DNA of 21,724 nucleotides from a virus: positions 1 through 21,724 of IMG/VR virus record IMGVR_UViG_3300035698_016608; one strand, 5' to 3'. Made by a program: the position numbers and the translations under genes. The notes beneath the pieces were generated by a model. That model saw only the letters and a list, made by a program, of their open reading frames with translations, was not told where the DNA came from and ran no database searches. Within the stretch, counting starts at the first letter, position 1. Every line of letters begins with the position of its first letter. Of the stretch, positions 6,832 through 18,250 are shown in pieces.

Positions 6832-8340
6832 TTAGAAGTCTTGGCTTCCATCAAAGTTACTACGCAGAGTCTCGACCATGGTTAAAGACCCCACAGCGTC
6901 GCCCGAAACAGTAACAGTGTTTGGGTCATCGGAAACAGACAAGGCGTTAATGACTCCCGCCGTAGCGATGGGTTTCCAGCTTGCGCCTCCATCGGTAGTA
7001 CGAAACATGTAATTGCCAGAGGTGTTCAGCATGTAACCTGTAACCCCATAGGAGTCAAAGGCCATAGTATAGCCAGCGTCAAACGTACCTTCCACCGTGC
7101 TAGTGCGATTTGTCCAAGTTAAGCCTTCATCCATACTTACATACAGGGCAGTAGCAGTACAGACAAAGATAAGGCCATTGCTTGGGTTAATGGCGCAACC
7201 AGTAAAAGCAGTTGATGTAGTAGTGCCAGAGGGGAGGGCTACATCAGTAAAATCAGTGAAGTTATTACAAACTGCAATAGCCCCCAGACCAACTGCAACT
7301 CCAAAGCCATTCTTCATTACAGAAATGTCTACCATCTCATCGGCTTGAGTGTTAGTGTAAATCACAGACCAACCAGCCCCACCATTGCTACTATGCCAGA
7401 TAAACCCAGAAGTAGCGGCCTCCCCACCAACCCCATAAATTGCAGAGGCGTTAATGGTCAACAGTTGACTCACGTATTCATCTACAGCACCTGGCAGGAC
7501 AACTTTAGTCCATGTGGCTCCCCAGTCATCACTATAAGTAATTACTGCGGCCTCCGCAACATCAGCCCCACGAGAGACGATGATACGGTTGTCACGGGCA
7601 TCACCAAAACCCGTTACCCCATAAAGGGTATCATCACTGGCTAGGGTGGAGGGCTGGACAATGGTCATCGTCTCAAAGCCGTCTACTGATAAAACAACTT
7701 CTGGAATAGCACCAGTCTTTGCACTTACAGTAAACACCCCCATCTCACCTGAGTCAATCCGGCGTGTGAAGTCATCAGACATCAAGGCGGGAAACACAAA
7801 CACCCCAAAGCTGTCTTCTATGGTTGTTTGGGCCTTGCGAATAAAGAGGGTAGTTAAATCAATGGGTAGCGGGCCATAAATAGCCATCACATTAAATTCC
7901 ATTGAGATTGGGGTGGCTTCCCCCTCATTGGTCATGTTAGCCCCTTGGTCTGACGTGCCTCCCGACATCTTACAGTAAACCCAAGCCAGCAATTTACCAC
8001 TAGCCCCGTATTGAGTCGGGTTTACCGAGCTATTGGTAGCCAGTTGCACGTTAAACACCCGACCTTTACTGAGGCCGATGAGGTAGTTCTTTTGATTGCT
8101 CAATCGGGAGGGAATGGCAAAAGTAGGTTGTTCAACATCACCTTCACCTAGTGCTACAATTTCCTGACCCATAGGCAAGTTTTGACTCTGACCACGGATA
8201 GCGTTAATAGATGGGCTAATCCAGTTGATACCAGTCAAGCCATGATTGTGTAACAACAGAAAAGGGGATAGGGGGTTAGGTTGCACCCACACTCGGCCCT
8301 CTTTCTGAAAAAGCGGTACTGATTGATTTTGTAAAGCCAT
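6832..8340 (-). CDS. Major tail (tube) protein with C-terminal Asp-box/BNR beta-propeller
   Basis: This 502-residue protein occupies the slot between the tail-completion gene and the tape-measure chaperone, which is that of the major tail tube protein. Residues 1 to about 220 have no propeller repeats and are the likely tube domain. Residues about 230-490 carry four Asp-box motifs: S270-D-D-W-G-A-T-W277, S317-S-N-G-G-A-G-W324, S402-M-D-E-G-L-T-W409 and T448-T-D-G-G-A-S-W455. They are spaced 40-85 residues apart, as expected for a BNR/YCF48-like beta-propeller. Such a propeller would be displayed along the outside of the tail and could bind glycans. The Shine-Dalgarno AAGGAGT lies 5 nt before ATG 8340 and incorporates the upstream TAA stop. 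The repeats are seen; the tube role is inferred from position. It could instead be a tail spike or decoration protein. Confidence 0.75.
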   Translation of the reverse strand: MALQNQSVPLFQKEGRVWVQPNPLSPFLLLHNHGLTGINWISPSINAIRGQSQNLPMGQEIVALGEGDVEQPTFAIPSRLSNQKNYLIGLSKGRVFNVQLATNSSVNPTQYGASGKLLAWVYCKMSGGTSDQGANMTNEGEATPISMEFNVMAIYGPLPIDLTTLFIRKAQTTIEDSFGVFVFPALMSDDFTRRIDSGEMGVFTVSAKTGAIPEVVLSVDGFETMTIVQPSTLASDDTLYGVTGFGDARDNRIIVSRGADVAEAAVITYSDDWGATWTKVVLPGAVDEYVSQLLTINASAIYGVGGEAATSGFIWHSSNGGAGWSVIYTNTQADEMVDISVMKNGFGVAVGLGAIAVCNNFTDFTDVALPSGTTTSTAFTGCAINPSNGLIFVCTATALYVSMDEGLTWTNRTSTVEGTFDAGYTMAFDSYGVTGYMLNTSGNYMFRTTDGGASWKPIATAGVINALSVSDDPNTVTVSGDAVGSLTMVETLRSNFDGSQDF

Positions 8341-9630: not shown

Positions 9631-10734
9631 TTAAGAAGCCGCAGTAGAGTAATAAATACCACGGAAGTCGGTGACTCCAGCCCATGTGCTATCCGCCATA
9701 CCTCCCCAAACATCAGCAACCTTCAACTGAATATTGCCAGTGGTGAAGTCTCCTAAGCCCTGAACTAAAGCACCTCCTTGACCGAAAGCGGAGAATACTT
9801 GTTGATTAGCGGCCTTTTGCAGAACCAAGGGGCCGGGGCGACCTTGCATACGTGCAAGAGTCAGAGGGCGGATACCGTTTGCATTGCTTCCACTGAACAA
9901 AGCCCAAGGTAAGTTAGGGGCTGTAGCGGTGGGGGCCAAATAGGGGTCAACAATAATTTGAAAATTCGGTAGCACGTTCAGGGCGTTGTTGGGAGTCTCA
10001 GCAACTTGGGTAGAGCGTTGAATCTGCAAAGCGGTAGGCTCAAGTCCACGGTGGATAACCAAATAGGTGGGGGTCACTGAGATAGGCTCACTCGCTGTAT
10101 CGAGACGCTGACTGAAAGAGGCCCAAGCGGTCATCAAAGCGGCGGTAGTCAACTGAGCAGTACCACTATACAACGCACCTAAAGAGGCTAAAGAAGCTAA
10201 GGTAGTGGTATTGAAATAAAGTCGGTTGACGAACTTCTCAATACTACGGCGAGCCGCTTCACCCATAAGGCGGGGTTGCTCTTGGAAATAGCCGAGGTCA
10301 TCGTTTACCAGCATTTCCATTTCAAAGCTGAAACTTCGTTCCCAACGGTAAGCCCGATATTGCAACTTACGGGGCTTGGGAAAGTCAGCTTGTGCGGCTG
10401 GAGTCTGAGGATTAACCATCAATAGGTCATCCAAGCCTTGCTGTCGTTGGTAGCGGGTAACAGGCATAAAGTTGGGAACGGTGTCATTGTAAACCAGAGG
10501 CTCAAAAGCGAAACTAGCTCGCTCGTAAGAAGGCCACAACGCACGGTCAACAAACTCACCCAAAGCTAAGGGGAAGTCGGAGGCAGACATAGCCTCCATA
10601 ATCTTATCTTCCGGCAGGGAGCCTTGTCCTGAAATTGCTTGGTCAACCAACGGGAAAAGTCTCTCATAAATATCAGCCTTTGCGGGTCGATTGGCTACAT
10701 TGATTTCTTGTAACATCTGTAATACTTGGCGCAT
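9631..10734 (-). CDS. Major capsid protein (Mu gpT-like, HK97 fold)
   Basis: This 367-residue protein forms the icosahedral shell. Family-like blocks appear in order: SASDFPLALGEFVDRAL near residues 50-66, VPNFMPVTRYQRQQG near 86-100, NDDLGYFQEQPRLMGEAARR near 143-162, VTPTYLVIHRGLEP near 220-233, LPNFQIIVDPYL near 254-265, and a C-terminal VADVWGGMADSTWAG block. This matches the Mu-like major head subunit group, including the 'NDDLG' and 'P..L.i...LEp.A' signatures. It follows the protease-scaffold and decoration genes, the standard head-module order. The Shine-Dalgarno AGGAG is 9 nt before ATG 10734. No separate prodomain is obvious; the first ~45 residues are helical and could be removed by the upstream protease, which cannot be decided here. 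Confidence 0.88.
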   Translation of the reverse strand: MRQVLQMLQEINVANRPAKADIYERLFPLVDQAISGQGSLPEDKIMEAMSASDFPLALGEFVDRALWPSYERASFAFEPLVYNDTVPNFMPVTRYQRQQGLDDLLMVNPQTPAAQADFPKPRKLQYRAYRWERSFSFEMEMLVNDDLGYFQEQPRLMGEAARRSIEKFVNRLYFNTTTLASLASLGALYSGTAQLTTAALMTAWASFSQRLDTASEPISVTPTYLVIHRGLEPTALQIQRSTQVAETPNNALNVLPNFQIIVDPYLAPTATAPNLPWALFSGSNANGIRPLTLARMQGRPGPLVLQKAANQQVFSAFGQGGALVQGLGDFTTGNIQLKVADVWGGMADSTWAGVTDFRGIYYSTAAS

Positions 10735-11395: not shown

Positions 11396-11929
11396 TTAGC
11401 CACCAATACCGTATTTTTTCAACACGGCATCTGTAGCATCGGTACGCTCTTTAAGGGTCTTAGGGGCGGCGTTATTGCCTCCAGTCGGGGGATTACCCAA
11501 CAGGTTAGCAATGGCGGTTTCCCTACTCTCTTTGACGGGGGCGGGGTCAGGTTCGGGAGTGGGGTTTTCATCTATATCTTCTTCTTCTTCCGCCTCATCA
11601 TCGTCATCGACAGAGACGGCGGTATCAACCACAGCCTCGTCACCATCTTCCATCCCGTCACCAGCCTCTAACAGAATAGACTGTACATAGTCTAACTCTG
11701 TCTCAATCAAGGCTTCAACGGTTACACCTTCAACTAAGCCGTACTCAGCTACTTGAACAGCCAGTCGACTCTTGGACACTGCGGGTAATTCGCTCAAATT
11801 GATTTCAGCAACAGCCTCTTGTAGACTCAATCGCTTTTCCAAAAGAGAAACAGCGGTCAGCAGGTTGGTGTTTTGCTCAATCAATAGAGCCATTTGTTCA
11901 CTATTCACATCTGTATCTTTGGGGGGCAT
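11396..11929 (-). CDS. Nested scaffolding protein from internal start (lambda Nu3-like arrangement)
   Basis: Inside the protease-scaffold gene, codon 178 is an ATG at 11929 preceded by GAGGAG (11944-11939) with a 9-nt gap. This is as good as the sites used by independent genes here. The product of 177 residues (MPPKDTDVNSEQMALLIEQ...) would contain exactly the helical, acidic scaffold region and none of the protease. Lambda C/Nu3 and other phages make scaffold by the same in-frame internal initiation. The site is seen; its use is inferred. Confidence 0.55.
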   Translation of the reverse strand: MPPKDTDVNSEQMALLIEQNTNLLTAVSLLEKRLSLQEAVAEINLSELPAVSKSRLAVQVAEYGLVEGVTVEALIETELDYVQSILLEAGDGMEDGDEAVVDTAVSVDDDDEAEEEEDIDENPTPEPDPAPVKESRETAIANLLGNPPTGGNNAAPKTLKERTDATDAVLKKYGIGG

Positions 11930-12460
11930 ATCTTCTTTCTCCTCAATAAAATTGATTAAATTGCCGTTTTGTGAGATACCTTCATTCTCAGCCAAGGTCT
12001 GGATGTAACCACCAGCTCCGGCTTGATTTACAAAATCAACGGTCTTTACCTTGTCGATACTCTCAACAATCTTGGCTCGTTTTCCTTCTACCTCACCCAC
12101 ACGACTTGAGCCTGACGCTACTATGCTCACATTCATCATATCCAGCAAGCCGTTGGAGTCTAACTCTACTAGCTTGTCCCAAAAATTGTTATCGTGAACT
12201 GCGGCTTCCATCACGGGGTTTCCGGCTTCATCACGTTTACCTGTCGGGCCTAAGATAGTCGCATACCAATTTGCCTCCCCCCACTTCTCATGCTCAGTGG
12301 AGTGCATCTTGACACGGCTCATCTTTTCTGCCAACTGGTTTACAATGTCTGTGGTATAGTAGTGGTTGTCCCTACTATTACCAAATCCAGCTTGAATCGG
12401 CACGAAATGGAACTTCTTTCCGGCTGACTTTCCTTCATCGTTTTGCAGTTCTAAAAACAT
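11396..12460 (-). CDS. Prohead protease-scaffold polyprotein
   Basis: The 354-residue product appears to be a head-maturation protease joined to a scaffold. Residues 1 to about 160 carry the likely protease: PIQAGFGNSRDNHYYTT, possible catalytic His in MHSTEHEKW (H53 or H57), candidate Ser in MNVSIVASGSS (S112) and KVKTVDFVNQAGAGG (D142). This order resembles the H/S/D pattern of phage prohead proteases whose domain ends in a 'VDfV..A..GG' strand. Residues about 178-340 are helical and very acidic (runs of Asp and Glu near 280-300), typical of scaffolding delta domains. The start overlaps the upstream stop as TAATG. Assignment of individual catalytic residues is tentative. An internal start for the scaffold alone is described separately. 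Confidence 0.75.
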   Translation of the reverse strand: MFLELQNDEGKSAGKKFHFVPIQAGFGNSRDNHYYTTDIVNQLAEKMSRVKMHSTEHEKWGEANWYATILGPTGKRDEAGNPVMEAAVHDNNFWDKLVELDSNGLLDMMNVSIVASGSSRVGEVEGKRAKIVESIDKVKTVDFVNQAGAGGYIQTLAENEGISQNGNLINFIEEKEDMPPKDTDVNSEQMALLIEQNTNLLTAVSLLEKRLSLQEAVAEINLSELPAVSKSRLAVQVAEYGLVEGVTVEALIETELDYVQSILLEAGDGMEDGDEAVVDTAVSVDDDDEAEEEEDIDENPTPEPDPAPVKESRETAIANLLGNPPTGGNNAAPKTLKERTDATDAVLKKYGIGG

Positions 12461-12906
12461 TACTTTGCCACCTTTATAGTGTATTTGTGATTACTGCCTT
12501 TTGCTTGGGAATAATCAAGGGTTAATTTGGTATCTCTGCCAACGACTCCGCTAATCCAGCCCTTCACCCTCTTTTGGGGTATAGGCCGTTCTGATGTTAC
12601 AGTGATGGTACAGTTATCGCCTCTAGTAGTTACACTAAAATCGCTGACAAAGGCTGGTTTTGATTGAACTAGACCAGCCTTGAGAGTGTCCTCATAAGTG
12701 TCAACCATTTTTGCCTTGTGCATAGGTCGGCCCTTCATCATCTTTTTACCAGACTTATTGAGTCCCAAATCAGCCTTCTGCTCATCGGTTAGGTTTTGAT
12801 TCCCCATGCTAAATCCACGGGCTTTACCGCCTCTACCATCATGTCCAAAATTGCCTTTACGCTCTCTCAATAAAGTAAAGCCACCTATTGCTACATATCT
12901 ATCCAT
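12460..12906 (-). CDS. Unknown small basic protein between portal and protease
   Basis: I do not recognise this 148-residue protein. The N-terminal half is Gly/Lys/Arg-rich (NFGHDGRGGKARGFSMGNQ, then KSGKKMMKGRPMHKAK). The C-terminal half looks like a single beta-sandwich (SDFSVTTRGDNCTITVTSER and later LTLDYSQAKG). ATG 12906 overlaps the portal stop as TAATG with GGAGG 5 nt upstream, so it beats the in-frame start at 12918. Its stop overlaps the protease start in the same manner. Minor head proteins usually sit at this position, so a virion role (internal or DNA-binding) is plausible but unproven. Confidence 0.7.
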   Translation of the reverse strand: MDRYVAIGGFTLLRERKGNFGHDGRGGKARGFSMGNQNLTDEQKADLGLNKSGKKMMKGRPMHKAKMVDTYEDTLKAGLVQSKPAFVSDFSVTTRGDNCTITVTSERPIPQKRVKGWISGVVGRDTKLTLDYSQAKGSNHKYTIKVAK

Positions 12907-14915
12907 TATCGCCTCCATGAAACTGAATCTTTTGTTTGATTGTTCTTGACTCTCAGGCTTCCTGAATTCAAAATATAAGGGGTGAATCTGGCGTTTATCT
13001 TATCTACATACTCCTGACCTTTGCCTTTTTTCACATAGGCTAAAGTTATATGGGGATTATACGATGGGAATGTTGAGGTTTCATGAGGCATTGTCAGTAA
13101 ATCCGTTTGTAAGGCTCTCAGACCTTCTGACTCAACCATTAAGAATACTGCGTCATGAGGCTTATCTGAGTTATCAAAATATCCAACCCCAATTACGTGA
13201 ATTTCACTCAAATCATGATTAGCCAACTTCAACCCTATCTTGGTTTCATCGGGGTCTTTTAGGGCATAGACTACGGCTATATGTGGGTTTTCTTCCCGAC
13301 CTGTCACATCATCACCTATGTACAAATCATCATTGAGGATATGCAACTTGCCGTAATCCGTAATCATTTTGGACTCATCGGCATCAAATATAATGCTGGA
13401 ATAGCTTGTACTCTCAGCGGCTAGTATCTCAGCTATCTCTGACTCGCCTGTTGGTATTTCTGGTTTTGGTTCTGGATTTACTTCTGGCTGTTCTGTGGTA
13501 CTTTCCTCCTCTGCCTCACTATCAGACATTATTTTCTTTGCCTTCTCTTTTGCATTATCAAACCCTAAGTGGTCAAGTAACAGCACTGAGGCTGATTCCT
13601 TGTCCAGTAAGTCTCTGTCAAGGCCCAGTGTTATCTTTTGAATTAGGTCAGCAGTAGTGGCTCTGATGATATTAGGCATACTTACAGATATATCTTCCTC
13701 GGAGGCATCTTCATACCCATTTTGTCTCAAGACAAACAGCCAAATCATAATCAGGACAGATTCCCATAAGAATTGATAGTCCTGAAAGTTCTGTAACTGC
13801 GGCCCTTCCATCTGTTCAGCAGTAGCAAGGCTTCCTATACTAGGGTCGCCTGTTAAGTTTGCTTCTGTGATACCTGTACCTATAGCTACAGGCTGTCGTA
13901 ACATACGGGAGTCTTGCATTGCGTCACCTGCCCCTGTACTTGAAGGGGGCGTGTTGGACATTGTTGCTTTCTTGTTACCCACAAAGGTTGAGCCTACAGG
14001 TGGGGACGGATTAGAGTCAAAGGGAGTACCAGCCCCGTTTAGTATGCTTGAGGTGAACCGATTAGCTATCGCCTTCACGTCTATGCTACTTCCGTCTACT
14101 GTAACCTGCCGGATGTAAGTTGCTAACTCTCTAACTATAGTGGCTCTGTCTCGTAGCATATCACGCCAAGCTCTGGAATATAGTGTAGTGGCGAACAATA
14201 ACCCATTGCCTCGTAGGTCTGTCGGGTCAAATGGGACATGAAACATCCGTACAGGCTCACCCTTTGAGTCCATAGCAGCATTAACTACACTCACATCCAA
14301 GCCCTTGCTGATAGCATCTTGCAGGGTAGCGGCATCTACGCTCATGTCTAAATAAGCCCGTTCTATTGACTCACTGGACGTGTTTATAAATCGGGTGTTC
14401 TGCCTTGAGTATCTCCTAATGTAGAAGATAGGCGTACTTTTATCCTCTGGATGGGTCACAATTTCCACAATCTCATCGGCATCTATGTTCCTTACTATAA
14501 CCTCGCCGTCCCTTGAGGTTGTGAGTGAAAGGAACAACTCGCTATCTATAAGCAACTTCTTTGGTAGGGTGCGGCGGTATATAGCTCCGAATATACGGTA
14601 ATTTACTGGCAGTTCCCAACACTTCTCTTTCCAAATCTCGAAATAAGCCTCCTTAGTAGTAGACTCAAAGTTCACCTTTGTAATGCCTAAGTATGTCAGG
14701 TAAAGACGAATGGCTTGTTTAGACAGAGGCTCTCTTTCCGCAAAGATACGGGACTCTTTAATGCTTTGTATCCGGCTTCTACTGCGGGACTCTGTATCCT
14801 CTGTGAAACCTACTTGGTTCCAGCCTACCATAGACTGTAGATAGGAGGCCATTTCATCATACACCGCCTCTGCTATGTCTATGTGTTCTGCTTGCAGTTC
14901 ATCGTTTTGGGGCAT
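12906..14915 (-). CDS. Portal protein fused to a C-terminal 2H phosphoesterase-like domain
   Basis: The 669-residue protein combines two modules. Residues about 1-460 look like a portal: a helical N-terminus, an anti-sigma-like stretch (KLLIDSELFLSLTTSRDGEV), RMFHVPFDPTDLRGNGLLFA, a long stem helix (WRDMLRDRATIVRELATYIR) and a GDPSIGSLATAEQMEG loop. Residues 465-500 are a Glu/Pro-rich linker. Residues about 500-665 resemble the 2H phosphoesterase (LigT/cyclic phosphodiesterase) superfamily, with H545-I-A-V in the first motif and H622-I-T-L in NPHITLAYVKKG as the second. The first motif has Ala where HxT/S is usual, so activity may be altered. ATG 14915 has AAAGGAGA 5 nt upstream, directly after a structured leader. 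The portal is confident from position and length; the 2H domain is recognised from motifs. Confidence 0.82.
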   Translation of the reverse strand: MPQNDELQAEHIDIAEAVYDEMASYLQSMVGWNQVGFTEDTESRSRSRIQSIKESRIFAEREPLSKQAIRLYLTYLGITKVNFESTTKEAYFEIWKEKCWELPVNYRIFGAIYRRTLPKKLLIDSELFLSLTTSRDGEVIVRNIDADEIVEIVTHPEDKSTPIFYIRRYSRQNTRFINTSSESIERAYLDMSVDAATLQDAISKGLDVSVVNAAMDSKGEPVRMFHVPFDPTDLRGNGLLFATTLYSRAWRDMLRDRATIVRELATYIRQVTVDGSSIDVKAIANRFTSSILNGAGTPFDSNPSPPVGSTFVGNKKATMSNTPPSSTGAGDAMQDSRMLRQPVAIGTGITEANLTGDPSIGSLATAEQMEGPQLQNFQDYQFLWESVLIMIWLFVLRQNGYEDASEEDISVSMPNIIRATTADLIQKITLGLDRDLLDKESASVLLLDHLGFDNAKEKAKKIMSDSEAEEESTTEQPEVNPEPKPEIPTGESEIAEILAAESTSYSSIIFDADESKMITDYGKLHILNDDLYIGDDVTGREENPHIAVVYALKDPDETKIGLKLANHDLSEIHVIGVGYFDNSDKPHDAVFLMVESEGLRALQTDLLTMPHETSTFPSYNPHITLAYVKKGKGQEYVDKINARFTPYILNSGSLRVKNNQTKDSVSWRR

Positions 14916-16498: not shown

Positions 16499-18250
16499 CT
16501 AATATTCCCCTAGACTCAACATCGGGGCTTGTCTTACCATAATTTCTTGTCCGGCATATCTCATCTGTCCTGCAATAGCATCGGCTATTACTAGGTCATC
16601 GTGACTCCCTGCTTGTGCGGATAAGGCTCCATTACTGTGTCTTACAAAGTGCATCATCTCGCCTAATACCGTTTCATCATAAATTATGCCTCCTCCTGCT
16701 GTGTTCTTTAGCTCTTCATCTAAGTCATCAATCATGATAGGCTTGGTTGTTCTGGTGGTGGGCCAACCTAGTCTTTCATCTACATGTTCATAGATGTTTG
16801 TGTAAGGCTTAATTGTACCATCAGACACCCCGTTTGCTAAATACCCCAGTATGGCATGTCCGTGATTGTTTCTCTCGACTCCGATTAGGGCATTATTAAA
16901 CACCTGACCTACTTGGGAGAGTATGTAGGCGTATTCTAGCAAGCTAAACTTACCGTGGATTGTGGCTACCCTTTCATTAGATATTCTGTCCCTTACTACT
17001 GCGGCTGAATAGTCGGTATCCCCACCATCTGTTTTAACTATGCCCTCCGCTACGTCAGCCCCTATCACATACTCTCTGTTTTGTAGGGGGGCTTTGTATA
17101 TCCGTAGCTGATGAAACTCTTTGCCTTCATATATAACGGGGAAATCTACAAAGATAGGCTTTATCGTATGCTTGTCTATCCTCTCCTTTACTTTTAATAG
17201 ATTGAACCTTGGGCGGCCTGTAGTTAAAAATGCAGTAGCTATACTTTCGGGGTATTCCTGTTGAAAGGCTTCCCCTTGGTCTTTTATCTTACTGCGCCTC
17301 CACTTTATCATTTCTGGTGAGGCTGTCTTACCCTCCCTTATTATTCTTTCTACTAATGCCTCCTCCTCAGACGTGTACTGTATCTTCTCGTTTGGCTCTA
17401 AAGATATACTGTATTCTGGTGCATGCCACCACGGGTAGAAGTGGACTTTGAAGTTAGATGCGCCTCTTAGAGACTTCTGTACCTCCTCGTAGAAATATCC
17501 CCCTACACCATTAGCCGTAGACTCTAGGACTATGTAAGTATCAACTCCCGCATCTAGGCTAGGGACTGACTCAAGTACACCTGTCATTGTATGTCTGGCG
17601 GCCTCCCAGAAAGCTACCTCTGAGCCGTGGAATACGTGTACCGTTTTTGACCTCCCCCAATTTCTGTTTTTGGCTGTACCTACATATAGTACGGAGTCCC
17701 TATTGGGATACCTAAAGCCGTTTGGATACCTACCCTTTCTGAATGGCCTCTCAGCATCCGGCATATAGTCCTCAAAACGGGAGTATATCTCAATCATGTG
17801 GGAAGTGTTATCACCCTCGTTGGCTACCGTAATATATGACCTACCTTTCCTCTGCACTACATCCTGATACATCAAGCCTTGGAGCATAGTGCTAAACCCC
17901 ATCTGACGGGCCTTCACTATAATGTCCCTTGGAGTCTTGTTCTGAATATAGTGGTATTGGGCATCATTCATTATAAAGTTTTCTATCCGGCCTAGCTTAC
18001 TCTTTAGCTTGAGTCTGGTGGCAAAGAAGGCATCATGGTTCATATCCTCCACCTCCTTGGGGAGTATGCCTCGGATAAAGTCCTTGTAGAGCGTGGCTAC
18101 CTTATCACTTGACTCCTCCTCTAAAACAGCCTGTAAGCGTTTCTGGGCGTGTTTTTGTTCATCTTTGGCGTTCAGTAGCTTAATTCTCAGGTCATCGGGG
18201 AGGTGGAGTTTACGTCTAACTCTAACTCTAACTCCTGTATTTTGACTCAT
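16499..18250 (-). CDS. terL: Terminase large subunit
   Basis: The 583-residue packaging motor and nuclease. The ATPase domain has a deviant Walker A, KARQMGFST (113-121), a Walker B-like HGSEVAFW (208-215), and VLESTANG (241-248) as the coupling motif. The nuclease domain (RNase H fold) has D399 in VIGADVAEG, E459 in LIGVERNNHGHAIL and D551/D552 in GSHDDLVIADAIA, together forming a two-metal site. Length is typical. The N-terminal 90 residues are basic and helical. AAGGAC lies about 6 nt before ATG 18250, after a 78-nt gap that contains a hairpin. The TAG stop sits in the next gene's Shine-Dalgarno. The protein cuts concatemers and drives DNA through the portal encoded at 12906-14915. Confidence 0.95.
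   Translation of the reverse strand: MSQNTGVRVRVRRKLHLPDDLRIKLLNAKDEQKHAQKRLQAVLEEESSDKVATLYKDFIRGILPKEVEDMNHDAFFATRLKLKSKLGRIENFIMNDAQYHYIQNKTPRDIIVKARQMGFSTMLQGLMYQDVVQRKGRSYITVANEGDNTSHMIEIYSRFEDYMPDAERPFRKGRYPNGFRYPNRDSVLYVGTAKNRNWGRSKTVHVFHGSEVAFWEAARHTMTGVLESVPSLDAGVDTYIVLESTANGVGGYFYEEVQKSLRGASNFKVHFYPWWHAPEYSISLEPNEKIQYTSEEEALVERIIREGKTASPEMIKWRRSKIKDQGEAFQQEYPESIATAFLTTGRPRFNLLKVKERIDKHTIKPIFVDFPVIYEGKEFHQLRIYKAPLQNREYVIGADVAEGIVKTDGGDTDYSAAVVRDRISNERVATIHGKFSLLEYAYILSQVGQVFNNALIGVERNNHGHAILGYLANGVSDGTIKPYTNIYEHVDERLGWPTTRTTKPIMIDDLDEELKNTAGGGIIYDETVLGEMMHFVRHSNGALSAQAGSHDDLVIADAIAGQMRYAGQEIMVRQAPMLSLGEY

Follow-up and report, generated by a model that had tools for sequence, protein, structure and literature searches.

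A putative portal protein with a C-terminal 2H-fold domain lacking the threonine of its first motif

Introduction

Domains of the 2H type have been described in polyvalent proteins and in fusions to MuF or portal proteins, for which RNase or oligonucleotide-degrading roles were proposed (Iyer et al. 2017, PMC5512222), and in a 2022 paper by Iyer et al. the MuF and portal fusions were taken to suggest packaging and injection against nucleotide signalling (PMC9503650). We found no experimental test, in the literature cited here, of the prediction that a portal- or MuF-borne 2H domain is an injected weapon. A Thr or Ser in the motif has been reported for all 2H phosphoesterases (PMC4643303), and in Acb1 of the T4/FBB1 type the tetrad is formed by H44, T46, H113, and T115 (PMC9117128). 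In CNPase, replacement of the equivalent Thr by Ala (T232A) gave a kcat/KM of <0.01, compared with 1.70, which was described as "near-complete catalytic inactivation", and the KM rose about 70-fold, from 553 to 39,648 μM; slow product formation was seen all the same in T232A crystals (PMC4643303).

Here we describe a portal-2H fusion encoded in the IMG/VR virus record IMGVR_UViG_3300035698_016608, of which the whole stretch of 21,724 nt (the window) was analysed. The portal-2H architecture is already published (2017, 2022), and the new detail in this virus is a degenerate motif.

Results

Gene context and portal part

The portal-2H gene sits between the gene for the terminase large subunit and those for the protease and the capsid, all on the minus strand. 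The features of the gene and of the surrounding head module are the following:

12906-14915, minus strand: portal-2H fusion ORF of 669 aa, from the ORF call, with its stop codon at 12906-12908
13506-14915, minus strand: portal proper, aa 1-470, from the PHROG 10963 match and about 25% identity to named portals
13407-13505, minus strand: Glu/Pro-rich linker, aa 471-503, from the sequence EAEEESTTEQPEVNPEPKPEIPTGESEIAEILAAEST around the linker and a low pLDDT
12909-13406, minus strand: 2H-fold domain, aa 504-669, from Pfam PF13563, the AF2 model, and Foldseek and VIA-align matches
13263-13283, minus strand: degenerate motif 1, H545-I-A547-V-V-Y-A551, which is H-x-T-x-x-Y-G in the relatives
13149-13151, minus strand: A589, a position occupied by Val in 118/123 relatives
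13023-13052, minus strand: intact motif 2, H622-I-T-L-A-Y-V-K-K-G631, whose columns belonged to the search pattern, so that their conservation is partly due to selection
16499-18250, minus strand: terminase large subunit, upstream in the head module, from PHROG terminase matches and tblastn to 291 phage records
12460-12918, minus strand: 152-aa ORF between portal and protease, whose start overlaps the portal stop
11396-12460, minus strand: probable head maturation protease/scaffold, PHROG 15531 (E-value 1.7e-6)
9631-10734, minus strand: major capsid protein, Pfam Phage_capsid_4 (E-value 4.8e-23)

The PHROG 10963 portal family matches aa 29-476 of the ORF (E-value 7.9e-29), and by this match together with the position of the gene the ORF is identified as a tailed-phage portal. 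As judged by tblastn and alignment, the portal part is about 25% identical to the portals of Methanoculleus virus L4768/Blf4, Arthrobacter phage TripleJ, and Caudovirus D_HF5_3. These named portals stop at the start of the window linker, and therefore the 2H domain was added behind a complete portal. The linker itself is read as flexible from its low pLDDT. In a model of the full-length protein, aa 1-500 were predicted with low confidence from a shallow alignment, and the 2H part scored >90 in most blocks.

The 3' end of the portal gene, with its 2H extension, appears native to the gene cluster, since the next gene starts (12918) inside the last codons of the portal gene (stop at 12906). This next gene, the 152-aa ORF, had no family match in Pfam or PHROGs. 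A recent foreign origin of the 2H domain was considered and found to be unsupported, the codon usage of the 2H part being typical for the virus despite a slightly lower GC content (0.40 vs 0.46).

Among named phage records, the capsid (9631-10734) and the portal (13506-14915) of the window are closest to the archaeal Methanoculleus virus L4768/Blf4, with 28.8% and 25.5% identity, respectively. A 502-aa protein of the virion region (6832-8340) has weak matches to BNR/sortilin-like repeats, below cut-off. Neither tRNAs nor Rfam families were found in the whole 21,724-nt window.

Family and fold of the 2H domain

Pfam PF13563 (2_5_RNA_ligase2) matches aa 542-635 (E-value 4.9e-7; 30.3 bits, cut-off 27; 33.6 bits in a separate search) and PHROG 755, annotated as "RNA ligase", matches aa 503-635 (E-value 2.6e-9), well beyond what chance would give. 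The window protein scores under the cut-offs of the LigT_PEase and 2H-SAK families of Pfam and of NCBIfam TIGR02258 (23.9, cut-off 65.7). It also stays below that of the Acb1 family PF23474 (21.9 bits, cut-off 27), and membership of Acb1 was rejected on this score. When solved chains were compared with a profile of the subfamily to which the domain belongs, the best match was Acb1 of phage BCSR5 (9q2g, E-value 6e-9), followed by archaeal ThpR-like proteins.

An AF2 model of aa 495-669, computed from an alignment with 62 relatives, reached a pLDDT of 87.3 and a pTM of 0.83. The predicted structure is a bilobal, internally duplicated 2H fold, in which the two histidines probably face each other, as judged from the alignment of the whole domain to 2H structures. 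The best Foldseek matches in the PDB are all 2H proteins, namely the Acb1-type phosphodiesterase of phage BCSR5, the penguinpox cGAMP phosphodiesterase, USB1, drCPDase, FBB1 Acb1, and LigT. With VIA-align, the Z-scores for USB1 (13.9, 160 residues), plant CPDase (13.5), Acb1 (13.4, 135 residues), and LigT (13.0) amount to a tie. The model and the structural matches settle the predicted fold as 2H.

These results agree with most of an earlier sequence-only reading of this locus, which had proposed a 2H-like domain fused to the portal. The portal-length N-terminus, the Glu/Pro linker, and the H545-I-A-V and H622-I-T-L motifs that it listed are all present as described, and the fusion is borne out by the portal match at aa 29-476, the Pfam 2H match, and the modelled fold. 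The structure prediction that it suggested indeed yielded a bilobal 2H fold, matching USB1, LigT, CPDase, and Acb1 at Z 12-14. It was right that a domain exists at 12936-13298, but the domain is larger than this, with the predicted fold covering approximately aa 504-667 and the domain 12909-13406.

Active-site motifs

H545 is encoded at 13281-13283, A547 (GCC) at 13275-13277, and H622 at 13050-13052, with codons 547 and 551 both being GCC. Motif 1 is H-x-T in all 64 distinct relatives retrieved by the scan that did not use this motif, and H-I-A in the window. Overall, the motif 1 Thr is found in 123/123 distinct relatives; since motif 1 was among the two alternative patterns of the second scan, only the 64/64 figure is free of this bias. 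The alteration of the first HxT motif reported by the sequence-only reading is therefore real. The same reading had asked whether the Ala is conserved among homologues, and it turned out to be shared by none of the 123 relatives examined. There are two departures beyond the one it had noted, G551A, at a position that is Gly in 121/123 relatives, and V589A. There are 16 columns with a conservation of 95% or higher. The window deviates in three of them (T547A, G551A, and V589A), which is tied for the most among the 124 sequences; 88/124 have no deviation, and just one besides the window has three. The window domain keeps both histidines, the second HxT, F580, D588, Y627, and K629/K630, and has no frameshift or stop.

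At the DNA level, the pattern GRE-[DEKN]-x-PH-[VIM]-Thr was found in 72 stretches in IMG/VR, and the Ala version of the GRE..PH[VIM] pattern in one stretch. The sole candidate relative with an HxA motif was rejected as a chance match, being antisense to an unrelated 1891-aa ORF. In terms of the two H-x-[T/S] motifs required of 2H enzymes, the window domain has HIT in motif 2 and HIA in motif 1, and we therefore term it a 2H-fold homologue and not a competent 2H enzyme.

Relatives of the 2H subfamily

When IMG/VR was scanned with a pattern built from the second motif alone, 288 relatives were confirmed, from which 80 loci were kept, and the second scan added more. A similar second-motif pattern retrieved 3 loci in 84,980 bacterial and archaeal species genomes, and the subfamily thus appears almost confined to viruses (288 IMG/VR relatives vs 3 cellular loci), with the reservation that the cellular pattern was somewhat stricter. 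A single-sequence search of IMG/VR gave no close relatives of the whole window portal or of its 2H domain, and in the distant-portal alignment there was no stretch conserved enough for scanning.

Judging by family matches, the subfamily is repeatedly found in virion proteins, including portals from three PHROG groupings, MuF-type proteins, polyvalent proteins with an LPD38 domain, and a head protease. The portals of the L045 clade belong to PHROG 10963, the same portal family as that of the window. Other portal-2H fusions involve PHROG 2662/12 portals (L118, L122, L124, L145, L035, and L142) or PHROG 146 portals (L108, L121, and L132, and also L130 by a local profile of the PHROG 146 group). 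In L142 (4099-7260), a portal, then a 2H domain, and then a head-morphogenesis (MuF-type) domain are found in one polypeptide. The 2H domain occurs with MuF-type head proteins in L158 and L131 and with a head maturation protease in L055, and L173 weakly matches a minor head protein family (minor head/pilot). LPD38, a domain of polyvalent proteins, is present in L076 and L102, and L117 has a match to a DarB-like antirestriction family. Stand-alone 2H genes were found a few genes from the terminase large subunit in unrelated contigs (L003, L039, L072, L075, L077, L079, and L089).

Further domain combinations were noted, most of them by eye. In the 2234-aa protein of L060 (4585-11286), the 2H domain is preceded by matches to families of phosphoheptose isomerase and polynucleotide kinase, and the protein is possibly an RNA-end-healing or nucleotide module. 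The 2H domain of L016 (5593-6411) has an N-terminus resembling, by eye, a ParE/RelE-type toxin. In L020 (3226-5235) and L024 (4684-6438), 2H lies behind an apparent tRNA nucleotidyltransferase/poly(A) polymerase, also recognised by eye, which would fit RNA repair, and in L005 (3860-5176) and L023 (5881-7203), from a 634-kb phage and a relative, it is fused to what looks like a DnaQ-type exonuclease.

Origin of the fusion

In a tree of the 2H domains, a long branch leads to the window, which lies near copies that stand alone or carry a toxin-like fusion (L016, L011, and L014), apart from the other portal-borne copies, and its nearest neighbour is L016. Constraining the window and L044, a 5' truncated copy of the L045 protein, to be sisters gave an AU p-value of 0.042, and constraining all portal-borne 2H copies to a single clade gave 0.080. 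The tree suggests that the window fusion arose by a separate acquisition, with the reservation that the window branch is long.

Discussion

Phage portals are formed by twelve subunits, and their C-termini form a crown within the capsid. Since this crown lies inside the capsid, the domain would hang in the head lumen beside the DNA, at about one copy per portal subunit. Twelve 2H copies at the vertex, as the sequence-only reading had supposed, is a reasonable and plausible extrapolation from portal biology.

In our view, the protein is probably a whole portal followed by a flexible linker and a C-terminal 2H-descended domain that is borne in the head, most likely catalytically crippled, and persists as a folded passenger or as a weak ligand-binding or structural domain. 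The architecture, the fold, the family, and the loss of the motif 1 Thr and of two other conserved residues are the observed part of this explanation. The A547 copy is likely to be crippled because the motif 1 Thr is universal in the relatives and CNPase T232A is nearly inactive, and the window copy is thus probably a weak or dead enzyme. RNA or nucleotide signals were probably the target of its ancestor, a domain that would have travelled in the virion. If set free, for example by the head protease cutting within the linker, or if exposed during DNA ejection, this ancestral domain would have used its two HxT motifs in acid-base catalysis to hydrolyse RNA ends or (cyclic) oligonucleotide signals. 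The present copy would have residual activity at best. A point against the crippled reading is that the kept catalytic residues, the confident foldability, and the intact frame are unlike free decay, and argue against complete decay.

It is unlikely, but deserves to be weighed, that the domain is a still-working 2H phosphodiesterase, in which H545, H622, and T624 act with a water molecule or another residue in place of the Thr, and that it destroys RNA ends or nucleotide signals during infection. Both catalytic histidines and the entire second motif are kept, the top solved-structure sequence match of the family profile is a phage Acb1, and, given the product formed slowly in the CNPase T232A crystals, some residual activity is possible. 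This has to be set against the Thr or Ser reported throughout the 2H phosphoesterases, the invariant motif 1 Thr of the relatives, and the two additional conserved residues that are lost. We consider it less probable again that the domain has become a repurposed pseudoenzyme that binds nucleotide, RNA, or DNA and leaves it uncut, acting perhaps as a signal sponge or within a DNA-gripping crown. The fold and the residues of the binding cleft are kept, and the structural matches include AKAP18 bound to AMP (2vfk) and a mitoribosomal subunit protein (6hiw_DQ), which are binding or structural settings, but the raised KM of the Thr-to-Ala CNPase makes it probable that binding is also weakened, and there is no homologue with the same change that would show that selection keeps the Ala. 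The more elaborate proposal of a virion-borne 2H pseudoenzyme kept for binding, as a portal-tethered nucleotide/RNA sensor or sponge or as a DNA-gripping extension of the crown, and evolved from an injected anti-defence enzyme, is a long shot.

An error of sequencing or assembly at the Ala codon of this metagenomic contig, which would make the domain an ordinary member of its family, is very improbable. The sequence comes from a single contig, and T547A and G551A require one base change each, but three separate conserved sites are altered, and the frame is intact with a codon usage typical for the virus. The crippled, head-borne domain is our preferred explanation. As regards function, the alternative of a relic that the sequence-only reading had also offered is the better supported one, and a special link of this copy to Acb1 finds no support.

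By itself, the window copy is one degenerate example, and the family represents a testable class of head-borne effectors. The spread of one subfamily over portals from three PHROG groupings, MuF-type and polyvalent proteins, and a head protease, with nearly all copies on viral contigs, strengthens the idea that the virion location matters. As a natural variant that has lost the Thr, the window copy is a potential built-in negative control when head-borne 2H effectors are tested.

Comparison with known systems

The closest described systems are the fusions of Iyer et al. 2017 and of the 2022 paper, in which, as in the window, a 2H domain sits on a tailed-phage portal; packaging of these fusions and an action on RNA or nucleotide signals were proposed. 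The window copy differs from them in lacking the motif 1 Thr, and no degenerate copy is mentioned in either PMC5512222 or PMC9503650. The 881-aa IMG/VR protein L045 has the same order of portal (PHROG 10963), linker, and C-terminal 2H domain, whereas its first motif, HVTVKYG, is intact and its position in the 2H tree is different (AU p 0.042 against sisterhood).

Anti-CBASS Acb1 (PF23474) shares the 2H fold and is the best PDB sequence match of the subfamily profile, but it is a stand-alone protein with an HxT/HxT tetrad, in contrast to the window domain, which has HxA in motif 1 and scores below the Pfam cut-off. In the alignment, A547 takes the place of T46, so that the Acb1 tetrad is incomplete. 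With one tetrad residue missing and the Acb1 structural match tied with those of USB1, LigT, and CPDase, a specific anti-CBASS role is unsupported. LigT/ThpR, plant CPDase, and USB1 likewise resemble the window domain in fold (Z 12-14), and differ from it in being cellular RNA-processing enzymes in which both motifs are intact.
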